A stretch of DNA of 64,000 bases from Antedon mediterranea (taxonomy: Eukaryota > Echinodermata > Crinoidea > Comatulida > Antedonidae), in the NCBI RefSeq assembly GCF_964355755.1, contig NC_092671.1, forward strand, positions 11,605,001 through 11,669,000, given 5' to 3'. This document shows, one piece after another, positions 1 to 58,688 of the stretch. Both the position numbers and the translations under genes were made by a program. The notes beneath the pieces were generated by a model that saw only the letters and a list, made by a program, of their open reading frames with translations, had not been told where the DNA came from and made no database searches. Each line of letters starts with the position of its first letter. Position 1 is the stretch's first letter.

Positions 1-3000
1 GCTAGAGCTAGCTATCACCAACCTGCAATATCACAAAAACTATTAAATAACACAATAAGCCTAGCCTAGGCCTATATAAAAAGCATGTCACTTTTGCGTC
101 GTGTGTATATATATGTAAATAGCGTGATCGAATTTTTAATGAAATATTTTTTTCGATGCGCGCGCGTGTTGTCAAGTCAAGCGCCCTCTAAAAATGTTAA
201 GACAGAAACAATTTTGGTTATATTTTGTTGCTATATTATTGATTTTTAATAAAATATAATGCAAGTTCTTATTGTAAATTGCTGGACCAATTTTTCAAAA
301 ACCACACGTATTTTATTTTCATATATTCATAAAACACTTTATCATGCTTATCATGGGAATTGGGTAAGGAAGTGTCACGGGCGGATAAATGTATTGATGA
401 TGCGATTACAAAAAAACAATATAGGCCTAGTATTCATATTTATATTTTTTTTCTAATTCATTTTGGAGTATACAATACACGGTATCGGATACTTCTGTTC
501 ACATTAATTAAGATCGATTTCATCGCGCTCTCTTTTCACTGTAATGTTTCAGGAGTTCGCCGTATCGCTTTGGCACTCCTGGAATGTGTATCGTGCGAAG
601 AGGCCAACAGGGTTGTTTAGGAATTTCCTCTGAGAAATAGGGCAATGATGCTAATTGGTTCGTCATCCACCACTCTGGAAAATGATCGTTGATTTCTTTT
701 TTTCGGCTGATATCCATAATGATCCATCAAAAGCCGTAGTTTTCTAATAAATTACCACCATACATGCATTTTTAAAATGCGGAATTTCCACGAAAATCTG
801 TTTCAACGAAAAATTATTTTTTAACTAACTAAATTGTATTCCTTTAATGTTTCTCCATTACGTAACCGTTGTTTTTTTGTATACTGTATATAAAGGCAAA
901 ATTTCGCCATTTCAATCATAAAAATAAGAACATTATTTGTATATATTTCATATTGTGAGATACACGAATGCATCCGGTTTAGGCATATGATGTTTTCACT
1001 TGAGGAAACGCTAAGTAAATATTTGTCTTGCCGATTTTTGTCAATGAATCTCAAATGTTAGAATAATGTAATCAATCTCATCTATCACTTTAATAAATAT
1101 AGTTATAGTTTCGCTGCAATTGACCCTTTGTTAATAAATAACTTTTAATGATAAATTAAAGAGCGGGTATTGACCTTTTTTGTTCACAAAAATCAAGTAA
1201 ACAAGTACAATGTTACGTTTTTACAGATTGTCTTTAATGTCGCGGCGCAACGGGAATGTGCTCTATTTTGAAATCTATTTTTGTCGCAATGGCCACATTA
1301 GTTTCAGGTGGTTCGTAATACAATTTTAAGGAAAGATAGTTGAGGACAGGTAAAACGATCAGTCACAAGATGCCCTAATCATTCCTGTAACCAGATCTCA
1401 TTTTTTACGGAACTTACTCAGTATTTTCAGCCAATGTGCCTCAGAGGAAGTAGGCGCGCCTATTGGTGATGCCACGACCGATAGCGTCGCCGTAAGATAA
1501 TATTTGAATGTTTTCCTTTTCATTGTAAAATCTCTTTGCTTTTACAACGGTCACCAACATTATTAGTTATTTCCTTATATTTACTACACACGTTCTCTCG
1601 GTCGGCAGCATCCGCGGGTTCTTATAAAAATATTTCGTATAAAACACAACCATATTCGTGCCGTCCTATTTTTCCGCCGAAGGCATTCCCTGCCGCGAGT
1701 TTTTCATCATAAAAGAATGCCTTGCTGAAATTCCACAGAATATAATTACGACATAGGTCAGCCATATCGGATGTAGGCTCCCATTATTGTTTCCGAGTAC
1801 TGTATTTATATTCCACCTCGTTCGCTGCTGGCTGTATGGAAGGTTCATTTATCAATCTTCCTAAGCAGGTTTTGCCAGTAAGATTTACCGGAATAAATTG
1901 GCTCTAACCGGTATTAACCTTTTTTTTTAATGCACCTTGTAAAACATTCAGTATAGTTCTATAGACACAAACACATTTAATAGACCTACTTTTGTTTCTA
2001 GGCCAGGCTTGAAATTAAAGTCGGAATGTTTTGGATCGAAAATTGCAGTTAACACAAAAAAAAAATAGATCAGATTTATGATTATAATATGAGTAAAGAA
2101 ATCACCTGGAGTCGGTAGAAAAGTTGGTTTACTTTTCCGGAATTGATCCATACTGAGAGAACACAAACAAAATGTTCAAATGGTTTTGCCGACAATGAAA
2201 TGTATAAAACATATTCAATGAAAATATCCAATACACTTTAAAGCCGCACGCATTAAATGTAATAACATATTTATGATGATAATGATACATTGTCAATACA
2301 GTATTTAATATTCAATTGTATTAAGAATCGTAATGTACGTATCTAGATCATTCCAACGATGATTAGAACATGATATAATAAGTATTGTTCGAAAAACTCT
2401 AGTACAATGAGGAGGAAATACATTTAAAGTCTCACTTTAAAAAGAACACCCAAAAATATACTGTAAATGGGCATTAAAAGAAACTTTGGTCATTTTAAAG
2501 CCTGTCGGTTTTTATGCTTTCAACAAAAACTTTAAGGCGGAAATAGCAAGAAAAATTCATAACCACGTGTTCGAGAACAAAAGATCTTATTTATATTTAG
2601 TCAATAATTTATTTTAAACATGTTTGGTTAATTCATTATTTTTCTCGAATAATACCTTACTTAATGTATACATTTTCACTACTCAGGTTTTGTTTAAGAT
2701 AATTTGGAACGGTCGATGTTATTCAACTCAATGAATACGGTACTGGCCTTTTGTATATTATAGATTTGTGTCTCCCAACATGGCCGACAATTTAAGTTCA
2801 TTTAGCAGCGATTTAAAATACAAAAGCTACGATTTACTTACCGAAAATGATAGTCAAATACACAAAACAAGTTAATTTGTAGTTTTTAGCAAATATTATT
2901 AACAATTTAGGCGCGGCAAACTGAATGTTACCTCGTAAGCAACGACTTCTCCTTCCGTATGTCAGGTTTTAGAACAACGCGATTGCATTCACGGTCAAGA

Positions 3001-4150
3001 CCAACCCCAACCAAGAGCATGGCGAACTCATGCATTATTCATTAAACCTTATTACGTAGGCGAAAGGAAAATGGCAATAATTGTTATGCACCAGTAGAAT
3101 CTTTCAGATCGTGATAAGTGATGAAGCATGTTTGGTGGTATGGTGTGCTTCTATTTTGAGGCTCACAGTATTGATTCATACCAAACAATACAAAAACAAC
3201 AATACCGTTATAATTGATGACCAGAAGGGATAGGAACAATATCGTCTCCTGACAAATAATGTTAAAAATTAAAAGAGTTGTGTAGGAACTACATATTTGA
3301 TTATTCAAAAAATACATTTGGTATATATAATAGTTAAAACAGAATCTGGTAAGTTCGTTATTAAAAATACATTTCCATGTAATCATTGCGCAACATGCAT
3401 ATTACAAATCAATATCGTATTTCAGTAATTATCCCATATTTGTTACGATAATTAGTTTTCGGAACATCCGTACGCTAACAAACCCTTTTTTAAAACTAGC
3501 CTCACTTAAAAAAAAAAAAAAAAAACAGAAACGAGCTCTTCTCCTAAACTAAATACTATAATACTATGTGGTGAATATTATAATAATCCTTTATTTTCTG
3601 TATCAATTGCATATGCATGAATTATCAAGCTTACTAATTTGGCCATGAACTCATGACATATGTGATTTGTTGCGGTAGTAATTAATTTAGTTGTTTATTC
3701 AGGGCTATTCATTTTATGAGATGACATGTCAAAAATTTCCATTACATCATTCTGATAATGTTCTGATACGTGAAATAAATTTCAAATAGACAGAGTTCGA
3801 TTCTCGGCGACACGAATTGTTTTCGCTCTCTCGGCGGCAAATTTCTAATCGTTATAATAATGAAAGTTTCGCATTAGTATATTAAAGTATCACTGCCGGT
3901 TTATTTGGAGATTTATTTATTTTTTTTCAAACAAAAATCGGGATTAAATTGACAAGCAGGGATGTTCAAATTTCAAAACCAAAAGATGATTTTGTAGCAA
4001 CAACAAAAGGTAAAAGACAATTTGAGCCAGGGAAAGACGTAGGCCTGTGATTCTTATTTTAAATCGGATAGTTGTATTGAGATTTAATACAAATCCAGCT
4101 TGGCAGCAGGACCAGGGAGGTATTACAATAGTATTACAGTAAAAAAATAA
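1..4150. other. intergenic, no gene recognised
   Basis: AT-rich DNA with short TAGGCCTAG-like runs at the left edge and a poly-A run near 3507-3525. No ORF here resembles a known family. Two weak candidates are noted: the minus-strand ORF at 520-717, and a 34-codon plus-strand ORF starting in a good Kozak context near 2780 (MADNLSS...). Confidence 0.5.
520..717 (-). CDS. possible small protein or exon, unknown
   Basis: A 65-codon ORF with a protein-like composition (motifs FPEWWMTNQLA, PYFSEEIP and PGVPKRYGELL). It is richer in Trp, Pro and Tyr than random AT-rich translations. I do not recognise the family. No strong splice acceptor or donor frames it, and the neighbourhood has no other coding sign, so it could be chance. 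It is listed because its amino-acid make-up stands out from the surrounding shadow ORFs. Confidence 0.2.
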   Translation of the reverse strand: MDISRKKEINDHFPEWWMTNQLASLPYFSEEIPKQPCWPLRTIHIPGVPKRYGELLKHYSEKRAR

Positions 4151-5829: not shown

Positions 5830-7767
5830 CTGAAAACACAACCAAGACAAAGACAGTATTGTTTAATTGCCTTGTTGAACACAGTGAACATGAAGCACGA
5901 ATAAAAACGATTAAATTAATATTACCTGTATACATTCGTTTCGTTTAAAAAACCCCACGTTTCTTAACGCCACAGCATGAAGGAGGTAAAGAAGAATTAT
6001 ATTGCGCAATATTTAATACAACACGATCAATAAAAGGTCTCCATTTAATCAATTCAGAATCCATTGATTTCCCATCACCAAGCGATTTAACAAACAGTAT
6101 TTAATTATACAAAACAAATACTACTAATATATACAATGATTATTTAAGAATAAATGATAAATTAAGTAGTATATGTAAAAAAGGTCATCGAGATTAATGC
6201 CATGGTCAAGTAAAAACATTAACAATAACAATAATGACCACTGGAAACGTAATCCCGCAAGCGTATTGAACAAATGGCCTTTACACGACAACTGACCGGA
6301 AAAAAATCTGTAAAAATCAATATAAAATTTCTCCGAGTTTAACCTACACTTGAGTAGGTCGTGTGTGTTTGTTCTCATCGGTAGTGTGTGAACAAAATTC
6401 CACATGTTATTGTTCGCGAGTGTCTTGTAGTGTGACGTCATACAAAAGGAACAATGTGACAAAAGGAAAACCCCGCGAAAATATATGCGGAATGAAGAAA
6501 TTCTTTAAGCAATGTTTGAGTCATAAATATCTTCATTGGAAACATGTTTTATTGTATACAGAGTAGCAGACAGTGACGGGGATTTAAGTGAGAAGACGGA
6601 GACGCTATATCGACATAAGCCTAAAATAAAAGAAATTACGGATCCGAAATTACTAATGTAACAACGAATTGTACTTAGTAAAATACGGTGCGTTGATGGA
6701 ATCCGTATACAACGATTTTACAATAACTGTTACCACACACGTACGTTTACAGAAACCATGCATAAACACTGCTGGCCACCGCCCAAAAGTGTTAACCATC
6801 AACGACATTCTTTTAACAAAAGATTTATTTCCTAATTTACTTCAATAAAAATAAAAGTACAGGTACATACTAATCTGCCAATAATGTACAATATATAATA
6901 GTATATATCTTAAGATAGAGCAATAACGAATTGGTATAATAAATAAAGTACAGTATTATATAATAAAACTGCAAGAATATATATCGGTTTAACACTAAAT
7001 AAAAGTAATTAACAATACGTACTTCTGAGAAAGCGAAAAGCGGTTTAAGCATGATCATAACCAAAAATAAGTTTGGTAAACAAGTGAATTCTTATAAAAG
7101 GAAAAAATACGAACCTTTTTATTATGGTTTTGTAATAGCTTTCAGTAAATCTCTATTTTCACAAGACCAGGCGTTGCTGCTTACGCGATGGGGTTTTTTC
7201 AGTTATGGCGATGGAAAAGAATTTGCTCATATTTTTTCTCCGTTCAACGAATGGACAGCTTTCATTACCCAGTCATAGAAGAGGTCAAATGAATATTCAT
7301 AGCAATCTGATTGACACGCTTTCGTGATGCATGATGGTTGTCACGGTGAAATAGGCATACCGAGTGAAATGTTTTCCCCACGCTTCATCGATTTTGACTT
7401 CGTCAGGAATGTTTCTATGGCTACAAAAGCTTTTTTAAATAATCGATCCATGCCATGGAGAAGAAAATAATTCGTTAATCTAGTCCGATGTTGTATTTTT
7501 GAAATATCATTTATTTGGTACCATAGTATCAGGAGCAATTAAATGTTTCCACAATAATTATTACCAAAAAGAAAAGGAATAAAAAACCAGTTTTAACTAC
7601 CGATTGGTATTGACCACGCCCAATAACACAGAACAGAATATGAACGTCACGCCCAAATTGACAATTCTTTTGTTATTAATGAAAGTAACAAGCACGAATG
7701 TGCAATACTCGGGGTACAGCGAAAGAAGCTGTATACAGACGTATACAGTTAGAAAGTAAAGAAAAAT

Positions 7768-7839
7768 AGGTTTCGCCAGGGCTCGAACCGGGAATTTCTG
7801 CGTGTTAAGCAGACTTGACAACCACTACACTACGAAACC
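7768..7839 (-). tRNA. tRNA-Val(AAC), slightly degenerate
   Basis: The minus strand folds as a cloverleaf. The acceptor GGTTTCG/CGAAACC is perfect, the anticodon stem TCTGC/GCAGA is perfect, and the loop TTAACAC carries AAC (anticodon at + strand 7804-7806). The T arm has the GGTTCGAGC B box. Two weak spots are visible: a mismatch in the T stem (CCCGG versus CCTGG) and loss of one D-stem pair (TCAA where TCAC is usual). It may be a functional variant or an early pseudogene. Confidence 0.7.
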
Positions 7840-8050
7840 TCTTACATTAAAAATGTGGGTTACAGAAAGTTTTTTAATCCATTTAAATTACAAATAAATG
7901 GTAATAAGCACAAAGCAAAATAAACATGTGTAAAAGTGATAATTACCGATTACACAAAATAAGTATTTTAAAAAATAATAAAAATAAAATATACTCTGTA
8001 TAATTATCATATTGCGTATACAGTACTTTTCACCATAAAGTAAAAAAAAA

Positions 8051-9340: not shown

Positions 9341-10216
9341 TTATAGAAATATTTCAGATGGCCAGAATTTATCATCCATGTATGATACATTATTTTCTTC
9401 ATCTTTTTCCTTTTCTTGATTTTTAACTTCTTCTTCCCAATGGTTTTCAACAAGTTTATATACGTCCAGTGCTGCCCTAGCATCTGCAACTGAACAGTGC
9501 TCTCCCCCTTGAATGTCCCGGCCTAGCAAGCACCTGGCTAGACACCGTAACGAAGGTGTACATGAACTTTGACCCATGTTTGTGAACTCCTTCAGTAGTT
9601 CGTACTCGGCTGTATCCCTTATACGATGTTGAGAGTGTCGTAATTTAAGTACGGCAAAGTCGTGATGAAGACTGTGTCCAACAATAATGCTTCCATTAAG
9701 AACGTCCTTCACTTCCGTCTGAACTTGATTGAAGCAAGGCGCCCCCGCAAGATCTTTCTCACGAATGCCGCTCCATTTAGTCCTATAATCCGTAACAGGA
9801 TTTGACGGTTTAACATACTTGTCATATATAACATCACCTTTATAGTTAACTATACTGCATCTAGCTAGTGTGCTGACACACCCTTTAATACCTGTGCCAA
9901 CCATCTCACAGTCCAATGCTACTATGTCATCTTCGTGCTCATTTAACAGACAATTATTTGCATCATAGCTTTTAATGTGCGTTTTCATAAACTCCGTAAA
10001 GACTGGATATTTGTTTAAGTCATTCTTATTTGTGCACATTTTATGATTTGCATTGTTTTTCTTTACTTTATTTTGTTTTTCTTTCCATTTTAGTAATCGT
10101 TGAATTCTTCTAGGAAGTAATTTTGAACTATTCGTCTTTGATTTTTTAGCTAAATGTTCATAGTGAGCTTGGTTTGACCTTTTAATAGAGGCCTTAGTAT
10201 TCTGGAGTTCATTCAT
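9341..10216 (-). CDS. AEN/ISG20L2-type 3'-5' exonuclease
   Basis: A single-exon gene of 291 residues. The N-terminal ~95 residues are Lys/Arg rich, as expected for a nuclear or nucleolar protein. The exonuclease domain spans about residues 97-262. DEDDh catalytic residues are visible: D102 and E104 in LDCEMVG, D186 in GHSLHHDF, H240 and D245 in EHCSVADA. The segments LARCSIVNYKGDVIYDKYV and DYRTKWSGI resemble AEN and ISG20L2 more than REXO4. Known family roles are RNA/DNA 3' end trimming, including 12S pre-rRNA processing by ISG20L2 and apoptotic nuclease activity of AEN; which applies here is unknown. An acceptor (TTTTTTCAG at ~10246) precedes a short leader, so a 5' UTR intron is likely. 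A 12-codon upstream ORF in that leader overlaps the start codon. Poly-A signals (AATAAA on minus) lie at 9329-9334 and 9294-9299. Confidence 0.9.
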   Translation of the reverse strand: MNELQNTKASIKRSNQAHYEHLAKKSKTNSSKLLPRRIQRLLKWKEKQNKVKKNNANHKMCTNKNDLNKYPVFTEFMKTHIKSYDANNCLLNEHEDDIVALDCEMVGTGIKGCVSTLARCSIVNYKGDVIYDKYVKPSNPVTDYRTKWSGIREKDLAGAPCFNQVQTEVKDVLNGSIIVGHSLHHDFAVLKLRHSQHRIRDTAEYELLKEFTNMGQSSCTPSLRCLARCLLGRDIQGGEHCSVADARAALDVYKLVENHWEEEVKNQEKEKDEENNVSYMDDKFWPSEIFL

Positions 10217-12746
10217 TTTGGAACAATGTTGTGATGAAAATCATGATCTGAAAAAATAAAAAAGTTAAATTGTTAGTTTATATTAAATAGAATAATCACC
10301 AGTTTACTCCAAAAATGTGTAAAATTGTATATTATCAATTATTGCTAATGTTTTCTATTTTAACGATATCAATTAATATTTGATAAATTATAAAAATACA
10401 AGACAAATTCATAACGATAAATTTGTGAAGAGCAGTAGAGATAGTCTTCTCTGAACAAATAATAACAAACAAATAATAGTAATATTTTACATTGTTAATT
10501 CAAATTACTATAATTCAAATTACTATAAAAGGAAAATGACAACAATGAACAATAACAATCAGGCTTTGCAGCAGGTCAATAGGAAACGTGTATACAGTGA
10601 TGGAAAAGTACAGAATATCCAATTATAATGATTCATAAACTGCAGAGTAGGCAAGTCAATACTGTCTTCTATAGGTTATACTTTATATGCTGGTAGTATT
10701 GTATAATTAATTTAAGTTAATAGAACTAGGAGGATAATTGCAAAATTTCAATCATATAATTTACCAAGACAATAATTTGCATTAATTATTAACAAGTTAA
10801 AGTGTAGTAGTAATAAATACAGGTACTGTACTTTAATAATAGAGAAAATATCTATATATATATATTTCCTCCATGGTACAGTATATACATAGTTTGCTGC
10901 ATCGTGTTTGTAATTTAAACTTGTGATGGATAGGAATTATTTATAATAATTATTATTTACTGTATTTAGTACAGAGAGATATGAAAACATGTCTAATTTA
11001 CTGATGTGAAAATAGCAAATTAGATACTGTATGACCTCAAAAAGATGCCCATTTAAAACACTTTTGAGTGGGCTTTGTTTTGGGATGGACTGATTTCAAG
11101 ATTAAATATTGCAATGCAAAACTAGGCTTCTTTTCAAGGGTTTACAGTACAGTATACAATTAGTCAACATCTTATTAAGAACAAATATTTGATTTCACTG
11201 AATTTAGGCAATAAGGAATGTTAGTTTATTAAAATCTCATTTTAATTATATATATATTATATATATATATATAACTTTTAGTTTTTACGCTGTTATTTAT
11301 TTGTTTTTCTCATTTGTTTATGTGGTTGTGCAACTAAACTAATAATAAATAAATATTAATTTATAAAAAAATCTCAATTTGTGCATGGTTCACAACACTT
11401 TTTACTTATATTATAATTATATCTCTAGCTAGGTGTAATGTAATTAGCCTAGCAATTTTATATTAGTTAAAAAATATATATATTATTAATAATTATTAGG
11501 CCTAGCTAGGCCTATTAATTATAATACAGAAAAAATCATAATTAATAATACACAAAAAATACGCTTAAATTAAACCTAACTACAGTAATCAGGGGCCTAG
11601 CCTCTAGCCCTACTCTACTACTATAGTATCCGTACTAGCGAGTTTAATGGTTTATAGGCTAATATGGCCCGTCAGTGACGCGAGTCAAGATGCCGGGCGG
11701 GCTTAATTGGTCCGGCGGATGATCAATCAAGGCGAGAGAGAGAACACCCCTCCCTATCTACATATTTTTAGGCCTAGGCATAGGTACACTATAGTATAGG
11801 CTAGCTTCATTTTAAATTAGCCTACCTACTACCTAGTACTACTTAAATATTTACTAGCCTACTAGGCATATAGGCCTAGCTAGGCCTAGCCTACTCCGGA
11901 TGACAATTTAGAGAAGTGTGAGGTCATATTGGCCTAGCTTAATATTCATAATAATTATATATATTAATGCATACCTACATCTATTATTGTACTAATTTAC
12001 ATCTATTTACTACACGTCCGTCAAATTTTATTTACTGAATTAGGCCTATTAAATATACGTATTTTTGTAAAAACAGATGACACGTGTTGTTATAATTGCA
12101 CAACCCCCACCACTCTGACACATTGAGGGCGTGTTGAAAGGTCGTTTGGGTTGAGGGCGTCATCAACAAAGATACAAGGTGTAGTAGAGGAGGCCAGATA
12201 GTCAGTAGTACTGAATGTTTATACAGTATTTATATTATATTTTGTTAATGATATTATAATCTTTTACTGTACTTTGTTAGTCTAATGTATTATATATATA
12301 TTTTATATTATCTCCACTTTAAAGCGTATGGCATTAGGTATACAGAAATATGAAGTATCATGATAAACACATTCTCTCAGACTCGGAGATGATGAACTGA
12401 CACTGACAGACAGTGACAAATTACCACCTTGCCTTTTTGCTGCTGCCTTTGCTGCTTGCTTTGGTAGCTTATTTTATTCCATGCCCTAATAAAGAATATT
12501 ATTATTATTAGGTACAGCTCCCTGATTAGGGTTCCACTCTGTCAATTGCCCCCTGTCCTTTGGTCACCCAGCCAGAGGATAAAAGACCTAAAAAAGGTTT
12601 CAAAAGACCCGGTTGCTCACTGACCGCAAAACATTACCGGCCAGTAACAAAATTTAACAATTGTTCACCCATTTTTTCCAATATCTTTTATTATTATACA
12701 ATAGACAAAAGGAATGACATCAGGTGAGGTCTATTAGTTACTAACT
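10217..12746. other. intergenic / probable divergent promoter region
   Basis: AT-rich spacer between the exonuclease gene (-) and HDHD2 (+). It contains (TA)n stretches near 10854 and 11258, dense CCTAGG palindromic runs at 11490-11900, and a GC-richer patch at 11670-11720. A sequence near 12470-12510 (CCATGCCCTAATAAAG then ATTATTATT) resembles the tail of a non-LTR element. No gene is seen. Confidence 0.5.
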
Positions 12747-30489: not shown

Positions 30490-30561
30490 AGGCCCGAGAG
30501 GGATTTGAACCCTCGATCTTCTGTTTACGAGACAGACGCCTTGCCACTTGGCCATCGAGCC
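30490..30561 (-). tRNA. tRNA-Thr(CGT)
   Basis: The minus strand gives a full cloverleaf: acceptor GGCTCGA/TCGGGCC (seven pairs, one G-U), anticodon stem TCTGT/ACAGA with loop CTCGTAA (CGT, reads ACG), and T arm GAGGG-TTCAAAT-CCCTC perfect. A T-rich run just downstream on the minus strand fits a Pol III terminator. It lies about 250 bp from the putative TIMELESS promoter. Confidence 0.93.
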
Positions 30562-46772: not shown

Positions 46773-47927
46773 CTAATTTATGATGTTATAATAATAATCG
46801 CTAACTTCATTTTCAGACAAAACTTTATTATAAAACTTGACTTCATCAATCAATCCAACAAACCAACGATGAATACGTACGTTTGAGCCTCCAATGCAGA
46901 CTGTTCTGTTAAGTGGTGGAATCGGACCGGAGCAGCAACCAGAGTTAGCCACTATTTGTCCATTTAGGTATATAAATACCGCGCTTCCATTGTATGTCAT
47001 AACTACGTGATACCATTCATCGTGCGTTGAGTTGACAAAAATGGTGTCATTTTTATTCATAGAAAATAGTTTTGCTCTGAGTCTTTCGGGTTTTGACCCA
47101 TGACCAATCATTATTTCAAATGTGCTAATTTTATGTCCACCATTATTCAATATGTACGCTCTGTAACATGAATTGTCGTATTTGTACCAGGCACTAACGG
47201 AAAAATCTGCTCCAAAATTAAAATTACGAAAAGCGTCTATTAAGAGCGTCTGTGAACCTGTAAACGCACCAGCACTACCCTTCACTCCATCAGCGTAAGT
47301 AAAGTTGTTCCCAGTTACGATGCCGTGGCGTGCGTTTCCGGAAACATCGTCTACGTTTCCTTCAAAGGCATAGTATGCCAACAAATTGTCACTTCTTTCA
47401 GAATCATTAGTTACTACGGTGCTTTGATTAACGTCTGGTGTTACAGATGTCATACGCACACCAACGCCTGACGTCAAAGATGTGTTGTTGTCGACGTCTG
47501 GTGTTACATATGTCATACGCACGCCGACGCCTGACGTCAAAGATGTGTTCCTGTCAACGTCTGGTGTTAGAGATGTCATACGCACGCCTACGCCTGACGT
47601 CAAAGATGTATTCTCGTCGACGTCTGGTGTTACAGATGCCATGCGCACGCCAACGCCTGACGTCAAAGATGTGTTATTGTCTACGCCTGGTGTTACACTC
47701 ACAGACAGCGATCCTTTTGTATAACATTTTGTACCAAATGTTCCCGGTTTATCTGCGAGTACCGTTAGTTTCCAAAAGTTTGGATAACTAATGCATTTTC
47801 TTCCACTAACAAGTACTTTCACACAAGCAGGCATACCGTCTATTGTCAATAGCACTTGGTCGTGTCGACAACTAGGTGTACTTTTAACAGTCAAACCCAG
47901 CAAGAGAAATAATATTAACCGAAGCAT
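46773..47927 (-). CDS. secreted protein with 21-aa repeats and LamG-like domain
   Basis: 384 aa from the ATG at 47927, which follows a splice acceptor (TTTGTTTTCCAG|GGT), so the longer upstream frame is probably intron. Residues 1-16 form a signal peptide (MLRLILFLLLGLTVKS). Residues 18-72 hold paired Cys (CRHDQVLLTIDGMPAC, KCISY, KCYTKG). Residues 77-160 are four 21-residue repeats of the form SVTPDVDxNTSLTSGVGVRMT, each with an N-glycosylation sequon, plus a degenerate fifth. Residues ~183-380 form a concanavalin/LamG-like jelly roll (LLAYYAFEGNVDDVSG, DFSVSAWYKY, WYHVVMTYNG, GLIDEVKFYNKVLSENEV). A glycosylated extracellular adhesion or lectin-like role is inferred; no named orthologue is recognised. 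Upstream UTR exon(s) were not located. Confidence 0.8.
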   Translation of the reverse strand: MLRLILFLLLGLTVKSTPSCRHDQVLLTIDGMPACVKVLVSGRKCISYPNFWKLTVLADKPGTFGTKCYTKGSLSVSVTPGVDNNTSLTSGVGVRMASVTPDVDENTSLTSGVGVRMTSLTPDVDRNTSLTSGVGVRMTYVTPDVDNNTSLTSGVGVRMTSVTPDVNQSTVVTNDSERSDNLLAYYAFEGNVDDVSGNARHGIVTGNNFTYADGVKGSAGAFTGSQTLLIDAFRNFNFGADFSVSAWYKYDNSCYRAYILNNGGHKISTFEIMIGHGSKPERLRAKLFSMNKNDTIFVNSTHDEWYHVVMTYNGSAVFIYLNGQIVANSGCCSGPIPPLNRTVCIGGSNVRIHRWFVGLIDEVKFYNKVLSENEVSDYYYNIIN

Positions 47928-48435
47928 ACCCTGGAAAACAAATGAAATTAAAATATGATTAGGTTGTATATATGTAGAAATATATGGGAATACTAGTGGA
48001 TTAAAGGGATGGTAAAGATATTGTTGGAAGGAAAACAGAAACATAGTGGTGGAATAGAAATAACCTGTTGTTTGTCCATGAGTCAAAATGTTAAAAAAAA
48101 TAGTCGTGTTTCAAAACTCACTGTTGCAAAATTAGTGATTGCAAGAGTACCTACAAAAAGTTGAAATCAATCTGAACAGCGATTTGCAGTAAAATAATAC
48201 AATAGTCTTCGTATCACATCGTTTCCTGACAGGCAAATATAGAAATTCGTTTGATTTGCTTTACCACTAACAATATCTATCTAATCAATAATACATGTGG
48301 CGCTATAGGCTCTTTTGTATAAAGACTTGTCTAATAAGAGGCGCACAAAATCAAAATTTGCTTGTTTTTCGAGAAATTTTATATTATGCGCTTATAATTA
48401 CTTGTCGGTCTTTAATCAACTTGATTAAAGTATTG
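47928..48435. other. upstream region of the LamG gene
   Basis: Presumed intron and promoter of the LamG protein gene. Nothing else is recognised. Confidence 0.4.
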
Positions 48436-49850
48436 ATTAAGAAATCCCTGTACTATAATAGTACAGGAATTTTCAAAAAATGCCCAAATGGTTACGGTAG
48501 GCCTATATCATAATGTGTTCTGCGCATGTTACCTTTAATACTATTTTAAAAGGTCGATATTTTGGCAATTAACGAAAAAAATCAGTGATTTTTACGGAAA
48601 ATGGTCAAATTTCGATCCTTTTATTTTTTGACATAACTATAGTTACTATTATCATAATCTGACATGCGCAGACGCACATAATGTGTTCTGGGCATTATAC
48701 CTCAACACGTTTAAAAGGTCGATATTTTGGCCATTATGCACTAATATTGCTATATGCGCACGTATAGTGCCATGTCATCATCTTATAGTGTCAAGGTACC
48801 ACTTTATGTCTAAAAATAAAAAGTTCAAAATTTTGGTAATTTTTTGAGAAACCATGTACTATAGTAGGGCCTACAGGGATTTTTTTGCAAAAACACCAAC
48901 ATTTCGACCTTTTTCAAATCCAATTATTATGCACTAATATTGCTATATGTGGACGTATAGTGCCATATCATCATCTTATAGTGTCATGGGACCACTTAAT
49001 TATGTCGAAAATAAAAAGGTCAAAATTTGGTCATTTTTAGAGAAAATCCCTGTACAGGGATTTTTTTGCACAAATCACCCAAATTTCGACCTTTTTCAAA
49101 TCCAATTATTATGCAGTAATATTGCTATATGTGCACGTATAGCGCCATATCATCATCTTATAGTGCCATGGGACCACTTTATGTCGAAAAATAAAAATTT
49201 CAAAATTTTGTCATTTTTCGAGAAAATCCCTGTACTATCTACAGGGATTTTTTGCAAAATCACCAAATTTTCGACCTTTTTCAAATCCAATTATTATGCA
49301 GTAAGATTGCTATATGTGCACGTATAGCGCCATATCATCATCTTATAGAGTCATGGGACCACTTTATGTAAAAAATAAAAAGGTCTAAATTTGGTTATTT
49401 TTCGAGAAAATCCCTGTACTATAGTACAGGGATTTTTTGCAAAATCACCAAATTTTGACGTTTTTCAAATCCAATTATTATGTAAAAGAGGTATATAAGG
49501 GTGCAAGAAATCCCTGTACTATAATAGTACAGGATTTTTAAGAACCCTTTATTTTTCAAAATAACTGGTTGCTATGGTTACTATATCATAATGTGTTCCG
49601 CACATTACCTTAATACTACAGTATTTTAAAAATATTTTGGCCATTTTCGAAAACCAGGCCTAACTGGTTACATCATAATCTGACAAACTATAATGTTACT
49701 ATATAAAGTATGTATAGTACAGGGATTTTACGGAAAATGGTCGAATTTGGATGTTTATTTTTTGATACAACTGGTTACTATATCACAATTTGACATGCAG
49801 ACAGACAGACATACTGTATTCTTTTAAAAAGGCATTTTGTTTTTTGACAC
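48436..49850. repeat. satellite-like array, ~183-bp period, with palindromes
   Basis: About four and a half units of ~183 bp (48.7-49.5 kb) share TTTTTCAAATCCAATTATTATG, TTGCTATATGTGCACGTATA, CATCATCTTATAGTGTCATG and a hairpin AATCCCTGTACTATAGTACAGGGATT. The array is flanked by a pair of longer related blocks (48440-48700 and 49507-49800; shared CATAATGTGTTC, GGAAAATGGTC and TTATTTTTTGA motifs) in direct orientation. No real coding capacity. Confidence 0.8.
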
Positions 49851-50551: not shown

Positions 50552-53500
50552 TTAATACTGTTCTGCTGGTGATCGGATGTCATCGATTTTGAGAATCATT
50601 CTGACCAACTGCGTGGCTAATTGAATCTGTTGCTTTTTGCCTATTAGCGTCTCTATAACATGTTGCTCCTTCATATCTGCAATAAGTACGATATTATTAT
50701 TATTGAATGCAAGAAACTGTTATATATATAACAGTGCGGCCAGATACATGCTGGTCGTATGAAACAAATTTGTAGTGATTAAAACAATGAAGTAACCAAG
50801 TTTTCTGCTGTTATTTTATTTATTTATGCTCTACCTTGGTATTGAGCACTCTATCCTAACGGTCTGATAATTTCAACCTGTATATATATATATATAAAAT
50901 GAACCTAAATGTAAGTACAATGATATATTTACAAGTGTAGCACCATAATCAGTATGCAGGGCGCATGGTAAGCTGCCCGACAATGGTTCTTGGTGCTTTA
51001 ATATCGCATAACATATGGTCTAAACACGCATTAAATAGCATGATTAGAAATCCTGTTTGTCATGCAGTCTCATGATTTTAAAAAATACCTGTAACTATGT
51101 ATAAATATAAATTGAATGATGGTGTCTTACCATTGGTACCACTGTTGAGGCAATCAATACCTAAACGTGGGTTGTTCTCTTTCAGCTGTTTAGATTTCAC
51201 CTCCGATAGAGTGCGAATCGGGTGCAGGCCGCTGTTCTCAGCCAGGGCCATTGGAATGCTTTCCAAAGCGTCTGCAAAGGCTCTCATTGCATACTGTTCA
51301 ATGCTGGATATCTAAAAAGAATATCAAAATGTGTGCTTACATGTGTATCAATCAATATTACTACTATTAACACTGTCTTACATATTAAATACAGTTCCTA
51401 AGATGAGTATCTGTTACAATGTAGCACCATAATCAGTATGCAGGGGCGCACGGTAGGCTGCCCGACAATGGTTCTTGGTGCTTTAATCTTGCATGACATA
51501 TGGTCTAAACACACATTAAATAGCATGATTAGAAATCCTGATTGTCATGCATACATATTTGCCAAATACTGTATATTTCTTTAGAATGGTTTGTCTTTGC
51601 GAATGAATCAAAGTCCTCTTACATTGTCGGCTCTTTCGCTAACTGCTAGTGCACAGGCAATCTCGGCAGCTCCGCCACCATACACGATATGATTACTACG
51701 TACAAGATTACGTGTAACACACAGAGCATCATGCAGCGCTCTTTTAGCTTCTTCAATAATCTGTAAGAAAATAGTACATTATTCATTATAAATTCAATTT
51801 GAATAAGATGCAAGATAATTATTTGCAGTAATGTTACAGTCATATCAGTATGCAGGGTCTACAATAAATGACCCGACAATGGTTCAGACTGTTGATTGCT
51901 TTAGCATGAACTCTAGCCTGAAAAGTTACAAATTAACCAATCAGGAATTCCGATAGTCATGCAGATTTCTACACACCACATGTATGTTAAAAAAAAAAAG
52001 AAATTATCTCACCATTCTGTTTCCTCCTCTGATAAAGATGGTAACAGCTTTAGTATTTGGACAGTCTTCTATGACAAGCATGTGGTCTTTAGTTGTGCCA
52101 AATGACAACTCTCTTACGATGCCAGCTGTGCCAAGCTTTTCTGCCGTTAACTCTTGGAATCTGGGTACGATCCTTCCACCGGTTGCAATGGCAATTAACT
52201 GCAATTAATATTAATACAAGAGAAACATTATTCATACAATTACGTAAATTGAAACAAGAAATAAGAAAATTCAGAATTGTAACTATTATCACAGTCATAT
52301 CAGTATGCAGGGCCTACAATAAATGACCCGACAATGGTTCAGACTGTTGGTTGCTATAGCATGAACTCTAGCCTGAAAAGTTATAGATTAACCAATCAGG
52401 AATTCCGATAGCCATGCAGAATCTTGATTTACTTTTGTAATAAACTGGAAACATGTAAATTTTACACATATCAAAGTTTATGTGACAACAAAATGTGATG
52501 TGCCCATGTGGATACCACCATATTTGGGTATTTTTTTGTCAAACTAGCTAGTACCATTACGACAACAACAATGCGGTATCACTGATTACCTCAATTTCCG
52601 GTCCTCCAACCCATCGTACAGCAGGTAGTTCATTCTGTAACAGTAAATGATTGGCTTCATCATCAAATCCCCATTGACAGATTGCTAGGTTAGCTCCAGT
52701 GTCCTTCACTTGTTTGATCATCTCTGTAAACTTCTCTTTCTCGTAAGCCTGCAGCTTTTTGTAGTCTTCAACAGACTTAATGTCCAGTTTGTGCGTCGTC
52801 TTTGGTTTCGGTGGCTCAAAAGGACACGTCAAAATGGCCATCTTCGCATCCTTGATTTCCTAAAGTGATAATTCATGCAAAGTTTTATTGCAACTTATTG
52901 AATTTAATATACCTAAGCAAACTTTTCATAACTAGTTTTTAGTATTTTTCAGAGTGATAATTTCACTTGATAAATATTTAAGGTACTTATGATGTAGCAC
53001 CATAATCAGTATGCAGGGGCACACGGTAGGCTGCCCGACAATGGTTCTTGGTGCTTTAATCTTGCATGACATATGGTCTAAACACACATTAAATAGCATG
53101 ATTAGAAATCCTGTTTGTCATGCTAAATAAATATAGCTTAATAACAGGTATCTAAACAACATGAGGTAATGAGGTATGTCTTACTTTTGGCATCTGTGGG
53201 TGGCTGAAATCTTTATCAACTACTACTCCCTTCACCAACATTGTGTCTTCCAGTTTTCCTCCTACTTTGCCGTCAACTTTGATCAGTTCAAAATCAACAT
53301 CTTTTCTTTCAAAGTCTGCGACAGACATGATTGCTTTTACAGCAATTTCTGCCATCTGCTTATGACAACGATTGATACTGTAGGACAGGGACAAAATATA
53401 GTTTAAAGTGAATAATATATTTACTTATTTAAACATTACACAATGAATTGTTAGAAGTGTAGCACCATAATCAGTATGCAGGGACGCACGGTAGGCTGCC

Positions 53501-56500
53501 CGACAATGGTTCTTGGTGCTTTAATCTTGCATGACATATGGTCTAAACACACATTAAATAACATGCTTAGAAATCCTGTTTGTCATGCACTTTAAGTGGA
53601 AAATTTATTAACACTAGAATCCCTAGTAAACAAAACGTCCCCACTTCAATATGGGTACTATACGAAGACTCCCATACTTACATTTTAGAACCTAGTGTTG
53701 TCATTGCCACTTTCACTAGTGGTTCTATGTTATCCTTACTAACTTCAAAGCTTTCAGCTATCTTGTCCAGCCTGGCACTGGCAATTTGAGATGCTAATTC
53801 GTAACCATCGGCGATGCGAATCGGGTGAATTCCACGATCTAAAAGTTGCTCAGCTTGTTCAAGTAAAGATCCAGCCAACACTTTAAACATAGGATAACAA
53901 CTTATTAATTGCAAAAAATAATGGCAAAAACAGATGGAGGTGAAATTGAGATAATGTTACTGGAGTTTTTCTTTGTAAAAAAAATCATCCTCACCTACAA
54001 CTCCTGTTGTGCCATCACCAATTTCATCATCTTGTGATTTGGAAAGTTCCACCATCAACTTTGCTATTTGATGCTGTACATCCATTTGTCCAAGAATAGT
54101 GGCTCCATCGTTTGTGACTGTTACATCACCATCAGGACTAACTATTAATTTGTCCAAACCTAGATATTTAAGAGAAAATACCTGATAATAACCTCTGGTA
54201 AAAAGTAATTTATACTGTAGAAGAAATTTGCTTGATTAATTAACAATGAAAATATTTATTATGAATCAGATCAACTTCTTTCTATTGTTCTCACCATTTG
54301 GTCCAAGTGATGTTTTTAAAGTGTTTGCTACAGCTTTTGCTGCCATGATATGCGACTAAAAAAAACAAAGAGAAAAGTAATCAAGCATAACATTATTTAG
54401 TGCACAGCTGATATACTTTGTAGCCTATGTATGTGGTCAAACCATATCGTTTAAAATTAGAACAGTAAAATACAAGTAACAACGTGCAACATTTAACTTT
54501 TGGGTCGAAACATCCCAATTTGTGGGCCGAAATGTCTCACTTGCCTCACTTTAGACCAAATTCATATTAATTTTTTTTGGTATTTATCAAGTTTTTAAAG
54601 GTGTTTATCAATCAAACCAAAGAATATATATAACAAGAATGAGTATTCCGCGATTTTTCCATGAGAAATTTGTAACAGAGAGCTCCAGAGAGTGATGCCC
54701 GCCCTCATAAGGGCGGATGTATAGAGTACAGAAAGAAAATACTGCAACTTTACCTACGAAGTAGCTTCGTAGATAGAACGTAGGCTACGTTGTTGGCTTC
54801 GTAGGTTCCATTGTTTGGCTTCGTAACCTCAATAAACAACTTTCAATGAGCTACGTTCTGAACTTCGTAGGGAGTTCGTAACCAAAATAAACAACCCTAC
54901 GATGTTCTTAGTGAAGTAAGGTGTGAAATTAATGTGTTAAATTTAATTGGCGGAGGACAAAGTTGTAAATTAATAAAAAATAAATAATATTTTTTAATCG
55001 TAATATTTTCCTTCGTGCGTGTTTACCTACTCAACGGCAAATATAAATTTCCCACGATGTATAACGTAGAGAGAGACACGATCCAACACAGGTGAACCGC
55101 AATGAACAGGCCAACTAATAAACATAATATAGCGAACGTCCCATCCAGAAACGATGCCGAGAAAAAAAGATCGTAAACAATTCATTCTAAATATAGCATC
55201 AGGACGTTCAATCGGTCGTTCAAAAAGACTGCCGACAGAACGACCGTAATTAATACAGACCTAGTTTTTTTTTGGGTCACTTGGCATGAAACGCGATACT
55301 CTCTGCTTACCCGCAATCTCTCACATGTTTTTTTTTTTTAGGGTGGCTACCGTCTGACGACGATAAAACAGTAATTAAGATCGTGTACCTGGATTTTGTG
55401 TCACATGACATGAAACATAATACTCTCTTTAAACTGCTCAGCTCACATGTTTTTTCCCCTCCAAATTCTGGTCGGGCCTTTTTCTTTATACATGTCGTAA
55501 TCATTTTAAAAGGCCTATTTATTTATGTTAAATCTTAATATGGAATATATATTTATTTTGCATATATTTTGTTGGTGTCCTAGCCTAGTTGTCGTTTTTA
55601 TAATTCGCTAACCCAACAAGGTAGGAATAAATAATTTATAGTGTAGGCCGCCGAAACAGGCTAGTTAGGCCTAGCCTAGCCTCGACTCTCTCTACGTGAG
55701 CTGATGTCCACCGGCCCGATGTCGTTTCGTCGGCGGATTTCCGTCCAAATTAGGATAACAAACAATACATCGTAGGCTACAAACAATACATCGTAGGAGA
55801 GAACAATTGCCTACGATGTAGGGCGGCTACAAAAATTGACCTACTATCTTTAGGTAGGATTTTAATTAGCAAACAATACATTGTTTGTTTGCATTGTCCA
55901 TGCCATGCCATGCTTCTACGAACCACCCTACGATCGAGGCGTAGCCTAGATTTCATAACAATACATCGTAGGCTACGAACAATACATCGTAGGTAGGAGA
56001 GAACAATACATCGTAGGCTACGAACAATACATCGTAGGAGAGAACAATACATCGTAGGTAGGAGAGAACAATACATCGTAGGCTACGAACAATACATCGT
56101 AGGAGAGAACAATACATCGTAGGCTACAAACAATACATCGTAGGAGAGAACAATGACCTACGTTCTACCTACGATCTACCTACGAAAGCCTACGCGTAGA
56201 TACGAAGCAGTAATTTCTTTCTGTACTGTACATACTAAATAAGACTTGATTTAATAGATATTGTACATGTCACATTAAATAGAATTATGATAATATATTT
56301 CGCAATTGTAAACTATTTTATAATACATATTTATTAACAAACTAGTGTACATTCACTTACAGACAGTTATTTACTAACATGCTAAATTAGTTCACAAAAA
56401 AGGCCTAACACAGCAACACCAAAATCAACGAATCGTTACTCAGCACGGCCTATTCTTTACCATTGCAGCGTACTACTCTACGCCCGGTAAATTAAGTATT

Positions 56501-57315
56501 GTTTTAATGATATAAATTAGTATAAAATACATGTTATTTATAGGATAAAATGTTAAATGTCATTAACATTTATTTGTTTTACCAGAAACAAGTTAAATAT
56601 AGGAATATTATTAAACTATCCTTCGTGAAAATGCGTAAACACCAACACGCCCGGTCACGCTATCGTAGCGCCCGGTTGATAAAGCGAACTGTTTATACGG
56701 CAGTTTTTACTAAATAAATTGCATAAAACGAACAATTAAATATCCAAATAGCATTTAACATGATGTTGGCATGTAGTTGATAACATTTTTTATCATGAAA
56801 ATACTACCGGTGGTCCAGCCCTTGATTAGTGAAACCGTCACAAACAGTTGTATACATCCCAGATACATCCTCACTTATGGCGGCGCCCTACCACATGGAC
56901 AATATTACTGTTACAGGGAAAATCGCGGATTACTCATTCTTGTTATATATATTCTTTGATCAAACCAACTCGTACTCGCTAGCAGTAGCCTATTTTAGGC
57001 TGATAGGAGTCTAGGCCTAGCCTATCTTTTTATTAGGTAGCCTACTAGACTCTAGCTAGCCCTACCTACTCATAATTAGCCATTAGTCTACTCCTAGATA
57101 AATAAACAATTGCTGGCAGAGGCATGGCCTATACCCTCCTACACTAGCCTAGACCATCAGTCATGGCTGCAGCCCATTATAGGCCTAGCCGTGGGACAGT
57201 TAGCTACCTTGTGTGCATCAATTCCAGATAGTCGTGTTTTGGATTCTTGATCTTTGATGATAATAAACGGTCTGCCATATTCATCAAATGCCAGTGAACC
57301 CATAGATCCACTCAT
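50552..57315 (-). CDS. CCT5: CCT5, TCP-1 chaperonin subunit epsilon
   Basis: Ten exons in phase: 57315-57208, 54355-54295, 54159-53995, 53880-53682, 53377-53185, 52859-52590, 52198-52013, 51760-51623, 51311-51131 and 50676-50552 (TAA). They give 541 aa, the same length as human CCT5. Epsilon-type start [13 protein letters not shown]; chaperonin signatures [26 protein letters not shown] (ATP site), [58 protein letters not shown] and [11 protein letters not shown]. The product is one of eight subunits of the cytosolic TRiC ring that folds actin, tubulin and other clients. Its six downstream introns each host one H/ACA snoRNA, and intron 1 holds a 1.5-kb repeat element. The start lies 505 bp from a divergent gene, suggesting a shared promoter. 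Confidence 0.97.
50933..51067 (-). ncRNA. H/ACA snoRNA, family A, CCT5 intron 9
   Basis: Minus strand: 5' hairpin closed by GCATGACA/TGTTATGC (one G-U), H box ATATTA, and 3' hairpin closed by GCACCA/TGGTGC followed by T-ACA. The 3' pocket has GAACCAT on the left and CTGATT on the right, the latter starting 14 nt before ACA, matching 18S rRNA AAUCAG-UU-AUGGUUC. The 5' pocket CAGGAT/CCAT fits LSU AUGG-UA-AUCCUG. The G-U change keeps the stem paired, as expected under RNA selection. Confidence 0.85.
51417..51552 (-). ncRNA. H/ACA snoRNA, family A, CCT5 intron 8
   Basis: Same design as the intron 9 copy: 5' stem GCATGACA/TGTCATGC, upper stem TCTAA/TTAGA, H box AGATTA, 3' stem GCACCA/TGGTGC, ACA at 51422-51420. 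The 5' pocket reads ATCAGGATT rather than AACAGGATT. The RNA end is about 105 nt from the intron acceptor, a usual distance for intron-processed snoRNAs. Confidence 0.87.
51829..51963 (-). ncRNA. H/ACA snoRNA, family B, CCT5 intron 7
   Basis: 5' hairpin GCATG/CATGC with upper stem CCTGA/TCAGG. The left guide TATCGGAATT is complementary over 10 bases to 18S AAUUCCGAUA and the right guide CTAGA pairs with UCUGG. H box AAAGCA lies 14 nt from the pocket. 3' hairpin ACAGTC/GACTGT with upper stem GGGTC/GACCC, guides GAACCAT and CTGAT, and ACA at 51834-51832. Confidence 0.88.
52284..52419 (-). ncRNA. H/ACA snoRNA, family B, CCT5 intron 6
   Basis: Same layout as the intron 7 copy: guide TATCGGAATT, upper stem CCTGA/TCAGG, H box ATAGCA, 3' stem ACAGTC/GACTGT. 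The 3' upper stem is GGGTC/GGCCC, a G-U for A-U change that keeps pairing. The terminal box is ATA instead of ACA at the same 14-nt spacing, a known permitted variant. A MITE fragment lies just upstream in the same intron (52467-52550). Confidence 0.82.
52467..52550. mobile_element. MITE family 1 fragment in CCT5 intron 6
   Basis: Reads TCAAAGTTTATGTGACA, then TGTGATGTGCCCA, CACCATATTTGGG and TTTTTTGTCAAACTAG: the core of the family seen near 22.8 and 39.3 kb, with both outer ends missing. Confidence 0.6.
52990..53124 (-). ncRNA. H/ACA snoRNA, family A, CCT5 intron 5
   Basis: 5' stem GCATGACA/TGTCATGC, H box AGATTA, 3' stem GCACCA/TGGTGC, ACA at 52995-52993, with the same 18S and LSU guide pockets as the other family A copies. 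About 60 nt of intron lie before it and 130 nt after it. Confidence 0.87.
53455..53590 (-). ncRNA. H/ACA snoRNA, family A, CCT5 intron 4
   Basis: Family A layout with GCATGACA/TGTCATGC, H box AGATTA, GCACCA/TGGTGC and ACA at 53460-53458. The upper part of the 5' hairpin has changed (TCTAAGCATG where others have TCTAATCATG) without touching guides or boxes. Confidence 0.86.
54726..56229. mobile_element. 1.5-kb TIR element with CTACGA arrays in CCT5 intron 1
   Basis: Left end AGTACAGAAAGAAAATACTGC and right end (reversed) AGTACAGAAAGAAATTACTGC form inverted termini. Inside are dense TAGCTTCGTAG/CTACGAAG motifs at 54755-54900, and at 55764-56160 more than ten copies of ACAATACATCGTAGG with GAGAGA or CTACGA spacers. 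No transposase. The subterminal motif arrays resemble those transposases bind in non-autonomous elements. Confidence 0.6.
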
Positions 57316-57819
57316 TTTGGTTTCAAATGTGTTAAATTCTTGAAAGAAATGAGAACAAAGCTATACGATTACAACGGATTTTATACTTCGTTCTTCCAAA
57401 AATCCTTCTAGAATCCTCCACACACACACGACGACCGACCAAACCCCATGCGCGCACTCGGTGCAGTTACGGGTCACTGGGTTTCTAGTTAAGATGGACA
57501 TGCGTACAAAATATTTAAATACAGAACCTTGCTGGTAAAAAAAGTGATATCTTTATTTTTTTTTCCCTATTTCTTTTTATGTAAATTAAAATTATTTTTA
57601 TTGATTGTTTTATATACTAGATTGTAAAAGTAATTGGGATAATTTTTAGATTAATGTTGGTAATTAGAATTTTTTCAGACTGAATAGGTCATATAGAAGT
57701 TACCGTGGGAACCATAGACGCAATTAAATCACTTCCTGTTTCGATTGGTAAACAAACGCTGCTGCCAGAGAGCACACACGGCTTTTATTATTATCCAATT
57801 TTCTACCTTTTCTCGGAAA
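57316..57819. promoter_or_regulatory. divergent CCT5 / axonemal-protein promoter
   Basis: 504 bp separate the CCT5 start codon (-) from the start codon of the small three-exon gene (+). The middle has a CACACACACGACGACCGACC stretch and no TATA box in an obvious position. A shared bidirectional promoter is inferred from the distance only. Confidence 0.35.
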
Positions 57820-58688
57820 ATGTCTTTCTTCAATGTGACTGCTTTGGGCTACCAGGATCCTATTAGAGCTCAAGCTATCAATCCTAATCCAGAATACTCG
57901 TACAGTCTCGTGCATAAAATCCCAGACAATTCATACGTATCGTTTAGGCCACCGACTTCGCGTTTACCACCAATCAACATGGATCAGCATAACAAAGTCG
58001 TTCAACCTGGCGATTATTCAGAACACAAGGGGTCATACGTGGAATACACAAGAAGGCTAACTAAGCATACAAGAACACAAAATGGTATGTATGGCCCGGG
58101 GGTAGGGCCTATGCCTGGGTCTAGAATAGGTTATGTAACAGAATAAAATGTTGTTTGTAAGTCTAGGCCTAGGGCCTATAGAGGCTAGCTAGGCCTAGAG
58201 AGGCTAGCTAGGCCTATTCAATATTATATTCTAGGCCTAGCTTAGGCCTATTCTGATTCTCCATTTTACATTTTTTTTAGCACCAAATGACCTGTATAGA
58301 AATCCTTTAACATCCGCTCAAGGACATGGATGGTGGGATAAAAAAGACAACATAGAAAAACGAGAACCCTGGACACACGTACCCCGACATCGGCATGTTA
58401 ATAGTGAGATGACAAGGTAATTACTAGACTAGGCCTATATTATTATTAATATTATTAATTAATATAATAATAAATAGTTTATAAATTCAATAATTATACA
58501 AAAATTAAAGGTATGAAATAACATTATAACAATAGTATGTAACGCAAGATTAAGTTAAATGTAAACATACCTTTTGAACAAAGGCCTTAATAATAATTTG
58601 TCATGATAAAGTATCATTTTTTTCTGTCTTCTTTTACAGCTTTGTGAATGAAATGGCAATTACCAACAGGGAATTTTCCTTATTTTGA
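57820..58688 (+). CDS. small protein, possibly sperm microtubule inner protein
   Basis: Three exons in phase (57820-58084, 58281-58416, 58640-58688 with TGA) give 149 aa. It starts MSFFNVTALGYQDPIRAQ, with the ATG in an AAAATG context; a longer in-frame start at 57745 exists but lacks support. The chain is rich in Pro, Tyr, His and Arg, with short motifs DNSYVSFRPPTSRLPP, GSYVEYTRRLTKHTR, GHGWWDKKD and a C-terminal NEMAITNREFSLF. It has no signal peptide or membrane segment. This composition resembles axonemal microtubule-inner proteins; TEX49/SPMIP11 is my best guess by size and style but is not verified. AATAAA lies at 58764-58769. Confidence 0.72.

Follow-up and report, generated by a model that had tools for sequence, protein, structure and literature searches.

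Six candidate H/ACA snoRNA genes in successive CCT5 introns of Antedon mediterranea, with a predicted change of guide target in one subfamily

How did six related small elements come to lie in six successive introns of a single chaperonin gene, and what might they do there? This question was raised by a stretch of 64,000 nucleotides (nt) of Antedon mediterranea DNA (contig NC_092671.1, positions 11,605,001 to 11,669,000; hereafter the window), in which the CCT5 gene lies on the minus strand. Each of CCT5 introns 4-9 contained one block of 133-134 nt on the host strand, as an earlier note on this DNA had claimed and as our exon model and block coordinates bore out. Judged from the sequence, the blocks very probably form a cis-duplicated array of H/ACA small nucleolar RNAs (snoRNAs) that would be released from the CCT5 introns and guide pseudouridylation, with one subfamily having been retargeted.

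Structure and kinship of the six blocks

Each block was taken to start at the first GCATG and to end three bases past the box, and its 3' end is thus set by definition. Sequence comparison revealed two types. The type A copies (introns 4, 5, 8 and 9) were 93-98% identical to one another, that of intron 9 being the most diverged (93%), and the type B copies (introns 6 and 7) were 94% identical, while identity between the types was 62-65%; the order along CCT5 was A A B B A A. The copies, in window coordinates, are the following:

53455..53588, minus strand: type A copy in intron 4; hinge AGATTA, ACA; 3' pocket fits 18S U109/U110
52990..53123, minus strand: type A copy in intron 5; hinge AGATTA, ACA; 3' pocket fits 18S U109/U110
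52284..52417, minus strand: type B copy in intron 6; hinge ATAGCA, box AUA rather than ACA; 5' pocket fits own 18S U1308, 3' pocket U109/U110
51829..51962, minus strand: type B copy in intron 7; hinge AAAGCA, ACA; 5' pocket fits own 18S U1308, 3' pocket U109/U110
51417..51550, minus strand: type A copy in intron 8; hinge AGATTA, ACA; 3' pocket fits 18S U109/U110
50933..51065, minus strand: type A copy in intron 9; hinge ATATTA, ACA; 3' pocket fits 18S U109/U110

All six blocks adopted a hairpin-hinge-hairpin-tail fold with two hairpins each, and the folds and box positions agreed with the two stem-closed hairpins, ANANNA hinge and terminal ACA (once AUA) that the earlier note had described. 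An H box of the form ANANNA was present in the hinge of every copy (AGATTA in three, and ATATTA, AAAGCA and ATAGCA in one each), and the ACA box was found in five of the six. The six folds were 2.2 to 4.8 standard deviations below those of shuffled sequences, with 0-8 of 200 shuffles folding equally well; the free fold of the intron-6 copy ran the 5' stem on into the hinge. Standard pairs occupied 160 of 162 pair cells (98.8%) compared with 29-47% in slid controls, a comparison biased in favor of the counted structure, which was derived from the six sequences' own folds. The two failing cells belonged to the type B copies, one in each, at the same position of the 5' basal stem.

The substitutions between copies kept pairing, as previously proposed, and 8 of the 27 pairs had changed on both sides, a number reached by 7 of 500 shuffles. 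Paired changes were seen in 4 of the 6 pairs of the 3' basal stem. Neither the 15 cells with two-sided change nor the covariation score of the six-copy alignment was reached by any of 500 shuffles; the number of further pair types in this alignment was not above that of shuffles (12 versus a mean of 12.3). Since most paired changes fall on the single split between types A and B (four versus two copies), they represent one strong comparison and not many independent events.

A search with cmscan revealed that each of the six copies had its best match in Rfam, on the host strand, to the two-hairpin family SNORA42/SNORA80 (RF00406), with scores of 49.2, 47.3, 31.5, 31.0, 27.2 and 24.7 bits, none of which reached the curated gathering score of 70 bits; the intron-7 copy scored highest. 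The covariance-model scan suggested in the earlier note provided a relative for every copy and a match at the cut-off for none. The type B copies also weakly matched SNORA15 (RF00398), at 30.0 and 26.3 bits, below the cut-off of 47. At gathering thresholds, Rfam detected only two transfer RNAs (tRNAs) in the window. A covariance model built from the six copies scored them at 132-158 bits in the window, where they match by construction, and the next match scored 13. The earlier identification of the blocks as H/ACA snoRNAs is supported because structure, boxes, paired changes, kinship to SNORA42/SNORA80, copy number in the genome and the fit of guides to targets at the expected box distance all speak for it, and the blocks are read here as six putative, well-formed H/ACA box snoRNA genes.

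The host gene was identified from a 541-amino-acid protein, encoded in one open frame by ten joined coding exons on the minus strand. This protein scored 970.5 bits against the NCBIfam model of T-complex protein 1 epsilon (cut-off 710.5), and its top PDB matches were CCT epsilon chains. Intron numbers follow the count of coding exons and would shift with any 5' non-coding exon. Introns 2 and 3 were short (135 and 114 nt) and contained no block, and in intron 1 the covariance model of the six copies found none at E-values up to 5. A snoRNA copy was therefore present in 6 of the 7 CCT5 introns longer than 140 nt. The parts of the gene are as follows:

50552..57315, minus strand: CCT5 (T-complex protein 1 epsilon), coding part from ATG to stop, identified by NCBIfam score and PDB matches
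57208-57315, minus strand: exon 1
54356-57207, minus strand: intron 1
54295-54355, minus strand: exon 2
53995-54159, minus strand: exon 3
53682-53880, minus strand: exon 4
53378-53681, minus strand: intron 4, 304 nt, GT...AG, one block
53185-53377, minus strand: exon 5
52860-53184, minus strand: intron 5, 325 nt, GT...AG, one block
52590-52859, minus strand: exon 6
52199-52589, minus strand: intron 6, 391 nt, GT...AG, one block
52013-52198, minus strand: exon 7
51761-52012, minus strand: intron 7, 252 nt, GT...AG, one block
51623-51760, minus strand: exon 8
51312-51622, minus strand: intron 8, 311 nt, GT...AG, one block
51131-51311, minus strand: exon 9
50677-51130, minus strand: intron 9, 454 nt, GT...AG, one block
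50552-50676, minus strand: exon 10

Predicted targets of the guide pockets

The pockets were compared with the ribosomal RNA (rRNA) of the same genome. One locus (L019) contained a complete 18S gene (1681 bits), the 5.8S gene and 28S model positions 24-1888 and 1904-2348, and a second (L020) contained the 28S part at model positions 2391-3399. The guide scan covered the species' own 18S, 5.8S and most of the 28S, leaving aside 28S model positions 2349-2390 and the 28S match at L018; the distance from target to box was fixed at 13-16 nt, and 200 shuffles were used per pocket. A repeat with 1000 shuffles was restricted to the intron-8 type A and intron-7 type B copies. Separately, an 18S core pattern had 16 matches in the assembly, of which 15 were scattered over the window's own contig; L019 and a further locus (L013) both lie on this contig, and the 18S match at L013 was only approximately 600 bases long.

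In all six copies, the 3' pocket ranked own 18S U109 and U110 first, in a tie. The pairing at U109 placed the target 14 nt from the box, with 7 pairs on one side; on the other side, type A formed 6 pairs and type B formed 5 pairs, one mismatch and 3 more. The score was reached by 0, 3, 3, 0, 3 and 3 of 200 shuffles (introns 9, 8, 7, 6, 5 and 4, respectively), and with 1000 shuffles the top score was reached by 14 for the intron-8 copy and 26 for the intron-7 copy. U109 is the site of human SNORA42, and the complementarity of the 3' pockets to it, through the common GAACCAUUG stretch, is what is expected of an RF00406 3' pocket, with U110 tied.

The 5' pocket of both type B copies placed own 18S U1308 first, with 10+5 pairs and 14 nt to the H box. 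Its score was reached by 3 of 200 shuffles for each copy and by 9 of 1000 for the intron-7 copy; U1309 was ranked third (32.0). U1308 had already been first for this pocket in a first scan with other pocket limits (4 and 1 of 60 shuffles). Complementarity on both sides of a uridine at the right box distance was thus found for the 3' pocket in six of six copies and for the 5' pocket in two of six.

Human ACA42 (SNORA42) guides 18S-109 and -572 and is hosted by KHDC4, and human ACA15 (SNORA15) guides 18S-1367, according to a portion of PMC6466398. Consensus pockets of these families served as controls, run without shuffles. The SNORA15 consensus 5' pocket picked own 18S 1309 first, the SNORA42 consensus 5' pocket picked own 18S 532 first, and the Rfam SNORA42 consensus 3' pocket ranked own 18S 109/110 second to third. 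This agreement suggests that own 18S 532 corresponds to human 572 and own 1308/1309 to human 1367. The shuffle support for the U109 and U1308 fits is moderate on its own, and the fits gain weight because the SNORA42 and SNORA15 consensus controls agree with the human sites. A guide switch in type B appears plausible.

Several results weigh against these assignments. In the first scan, none of the six 3' hairpins gave U109, and 52-59 of 60 shuffles reached the top score; once the U109 match had been spotted by eye, the pockets were re-set by the box-distance rule, and it is on this setting that the U109 result depends. The SNORA42 consensus 3' pocket put a 28S site above 109/110 (28.0 versus 27.0), and for the type B 5' pocket a 28S site came a nearly equal second (32.5 versus 33.5 for U1308). 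Moreover, no scanned rRNA site exceeded shuffles for the type A 5' pocket. The AUA in place of ACA in the intron-6 copy and the Rfam scores below gathering belong on the same side.

The type A 5' pocket was examined at the other SNORA42 site. Its top score was reached by 87, 117, 92 and 104 of 200 shuffles (introns 9, 8, 5 and 4, respectively) and by 553 of 1000 for the intron-8 copy. At own 18S U532, the left arm formed 7 of 7 pairs in register in all four copies and the right arm only 1, while the type B 5' pockets formed 5 and 2 pairs there; a two-sided fit to the 18S-572 site of the SNORA42 5' pocket was found in none of the six copies. We termed the type A 5' pocket an orphan because only the left arm is kept for this site and the right arm is gone. 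Alternatively, this hairpin may be a worn or one-armed 18S-572 guide, or a guide for a target outside the scanned rRNA, such as a small nuclear RNA, the missing 28S stretch or a messenger RNA, and we rate the chances of this just short of even. The complete left arm at U532, which is the SNORA42 consensus choice, recurs in all four type A copies and lines up with the corresponding arm of the RF00406 model; the single right-arm pair in each of them, and the failure of any rRNA site to beat shuffles, argue the other way. The type A 5' pocket also fits the vertebrate 28S sequence near the sarcin-ricin loop, but this candidate was dropped because the two places found in the present genome differ upstream.

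Origin and function of the array

DNA searches of the 354,431,138-base assembly revealed four type A and two type B places, all inside CCT5. Since the assembly contains N stretches and the search passes over common words, this count of six is not proof of absence elsewhere. A pattern of the 3' U109 pocket was found across the whole genome at five of the six array copies and at one other place, compared with one match for a control pattern; the intron-6 copy was missed because its AUA box cannot match. The other place (L021) was ruled out, as it lacked the pocket fold. The genome search with RF00406 returned only two of the six array copies, and that with RF00398 gave no match, although type B scores 26-30 bits in a small search; these searches miss known copies and are therefore insensitive at this level, so that absence is not demonstrated by them. 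The sole additional RF00406 candidate (L003, 24.8 bits) was ruled out as a simple repeat.

Outside the blocks, the intron sequences showed no clear likeness among introns (best between-intron E-value 0.028), and the top match was that of one intron-9 flank to the other. Because each copy is flanked by a different pair of exons and has nothing beyond the snoRNA unit in common with the others, simple tandem duplication of an exon-intron block does not explain the array. The simpler account would be that the unit alone was copied, via DNA or RNA. Repeated insertion of a small unit would also fit unlike flanks, and the blocks might then be copies of a mobile element, such as a snoRNA-derived retroposon or a short interspersed nuclear element, that landed in CCT5. 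This rival is largely refuted, and we consider it extremely improbable. The high-copy transposon that would have refuted the earlier note, by its own account, did not emerge, the assembly-wide searches giving six places, all in CCT5; there is one copy per intron, and every copy is on the host strand. Around the six copies, no marks of retroposition were found: no poly(A) run occurred within 40 bases after any of them, and target-site repeats were not convincing, since the longest words in common were 4-8 nt and the shuffle frequency, uncorrected, fell no lower than 0.028.

We propose that the six H/ACA genes would have arisen by copying inside one gene. Release by splicing followed by exonuclease trimming is the established pathway for intronic H/ACA snoRNAs. 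CCT5 splicing would likewise free each intron, and exonucleases would trim it to a two-hairpin RNA which, judging from its snoRNA class, would be held by dyskerin, GAR1, NHP2 and NOP10. The 3' pocket of all six RNAs would pair around 18S U109 (or U110) and lead to its conversion to pseudouridine. Additionally, the type B 5' pocket would pair around own 18S U1308, with U1309 close behind, at what is probably the place guided by human SNORA15 (18S-1367). Such an array would increase the dose of a single guide and couple this dose to expression of the chaperonin gene, and the 5' hairpin would be free to change its target. Expression, assembly of the ribonucleoprotein, the actual modification and the copying mechanism are the steps that we infer.

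A fuller version is conceivable, but we rate it as less likely than not. CCT5 would be the only genomic source of an 18S-109 guide, in the form of a six-copy array; type B would be a composite of the SNORA42 3' and SNORA15 5' sites, and type A would retain half of the second SNORA42 guide. Copying would have involved the unit alone, perhaps via RNA, and chaperonin expression would set the dose of two 18S pseudouridines.

Two further explanations concern what the copies do at present. Only some of them may be functional, the AUA copy or the type A copies with an orphan 5' hairpin being decaying duplicates whose similarity is maintained by gene conversion. The loss of ACA in one copy and the lack of a complete rRNA partner for the type A 5' pocket agree with decay, which we nevertheless regard as unlikely: the 5' hairpins are conserved as well as the 3' hairpins, both between the intron-5 and intron-4 copies (58 of 60 versus 57 of 59 alike) and between the intron-7 and intron-6 copies (56 of 59 versus 57 of 58), and decay would not spare the structure, in which almost every cell is still paired. 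The blocks could instead influence the splicing or expression of CCT5 in cis, with a secondary guide role, since intronic snoRNAs pairing with nearby intron sequence were reported to affect host splicing in an extract of PMC10324135. We consider this very improbable, as the snoRNA itself is what the introns share and the flanks are unlike. The preferred reading thus remains a duplicated array of guide RNAs with one retargeted subfamily.

Relation to known snoRNAs and neighboring features

Compared with SNORA42/SNORA80, the CCT5 copies were similar in their two hairpins and in the fit of their 3' pocket to 18S-109 but not in their Rfam scores, their 5' pocket, their host gene (KHDC4 in human) or the arrangement of copies. 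The best 18S fit of the type B 5' pocket lies within one base of the SNORA15 consensus pick (1308 versus 1309), and both hosts are chaperonin subunit genes (human CCT6A and, here, CCT5); type B differs from SNORA15 in that its 3' hairpin fits the SNORA42 site, its host is CCT5 and its scores are below 47. The chicken TCP1 and CCT6A genes also contain H/ACA snoRNAs, as described in a section of PMC2653536, and among the open-licence papers listed, none had a title or abstract concerning CCT5 as a snoRNA host. CCT5 would thus join TCP1 and CCT6A among the chaperonin genes that host H/ACA snoRNAs.

Arrays of this kind are known. The same section of PMC2653536 attributes almost all chicken snoRNA paralogues to intragenic duplication and states that substitutions may bring new guide functions. 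According to PMC1821038, Drosophila mfl carries a one-per-intron cluster in which one C/D snoRNA occurs four times, and one noncoding RNA gene per intron is a rule widely followed in animals. The CCT5 array resembles these cases in occupying neighboring introns of one protein gene, with one copy per intron as in mfl, and resembles the chicken paralogues in the change of guide, reported there and predicted here; unlike mfl, it consists of H/ACA snoRNAs in six copies. Excerpts of PMC2653536, PMC1821038 and PMC5932544 together present one-per-intron, cis-duplicated snoRNA paralogues as a known pattern. In human families with at least two expressed members, all of these lie in one host gene for 7.3% of H/ACA compared with 59.5% of C/D families, according to part of PMC8178906.

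The suggestion that a six-copy array in CCT5 is undescribed was not contradicted by the literature found, but its novelty had been rated too high, as one-per-intron cis-duplicated paralogues are known; the array adds one more member to a known kind of arrangement and is modestly unusual. H/ACA guides with several lettered copies occur in Drosophila as well, and they would reduce the novelty still more. One such named copy is snoRNA:Psi18S-1377b, listed in a passage of PMC13228274. The predicted rRNA targets, the SNORA42 kinship and the guide difference between types A and B go beyond the earlier note. The locus may provide a clear instance of an H/ACA family confined, as far as the searches reach, to one gene. 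It may also offer a natural series for studying how the target of one hairpin is retained and that of the other shifts, and how many guide copies a cell keeps.

Just downstream of CCT5, at 49000-49482, direct repeats were spaced approximately 180-185 nt apart, with a 145-nt unit (88% alike) and related 56-nt and 112-nt families. An open frame at 57718-58146, on the strand opposite CCT5 and adjoining exon 1, matched sperm microtubule inner protein 11 (SPMIP11). On the minus strand, the open frame at 46773-48110 encoded a C-terminal Laminin_G_3 domain preceded by repeated 'TPDVD.NTSLTSGVGVRMT'-like units, and that at 9341-10240 an RNase_T exonuclease domain. The minus strand also carried tRNA-Val (AAC) at 7767-7840 and tRNA-Thr (CGT) at 30490-30561.

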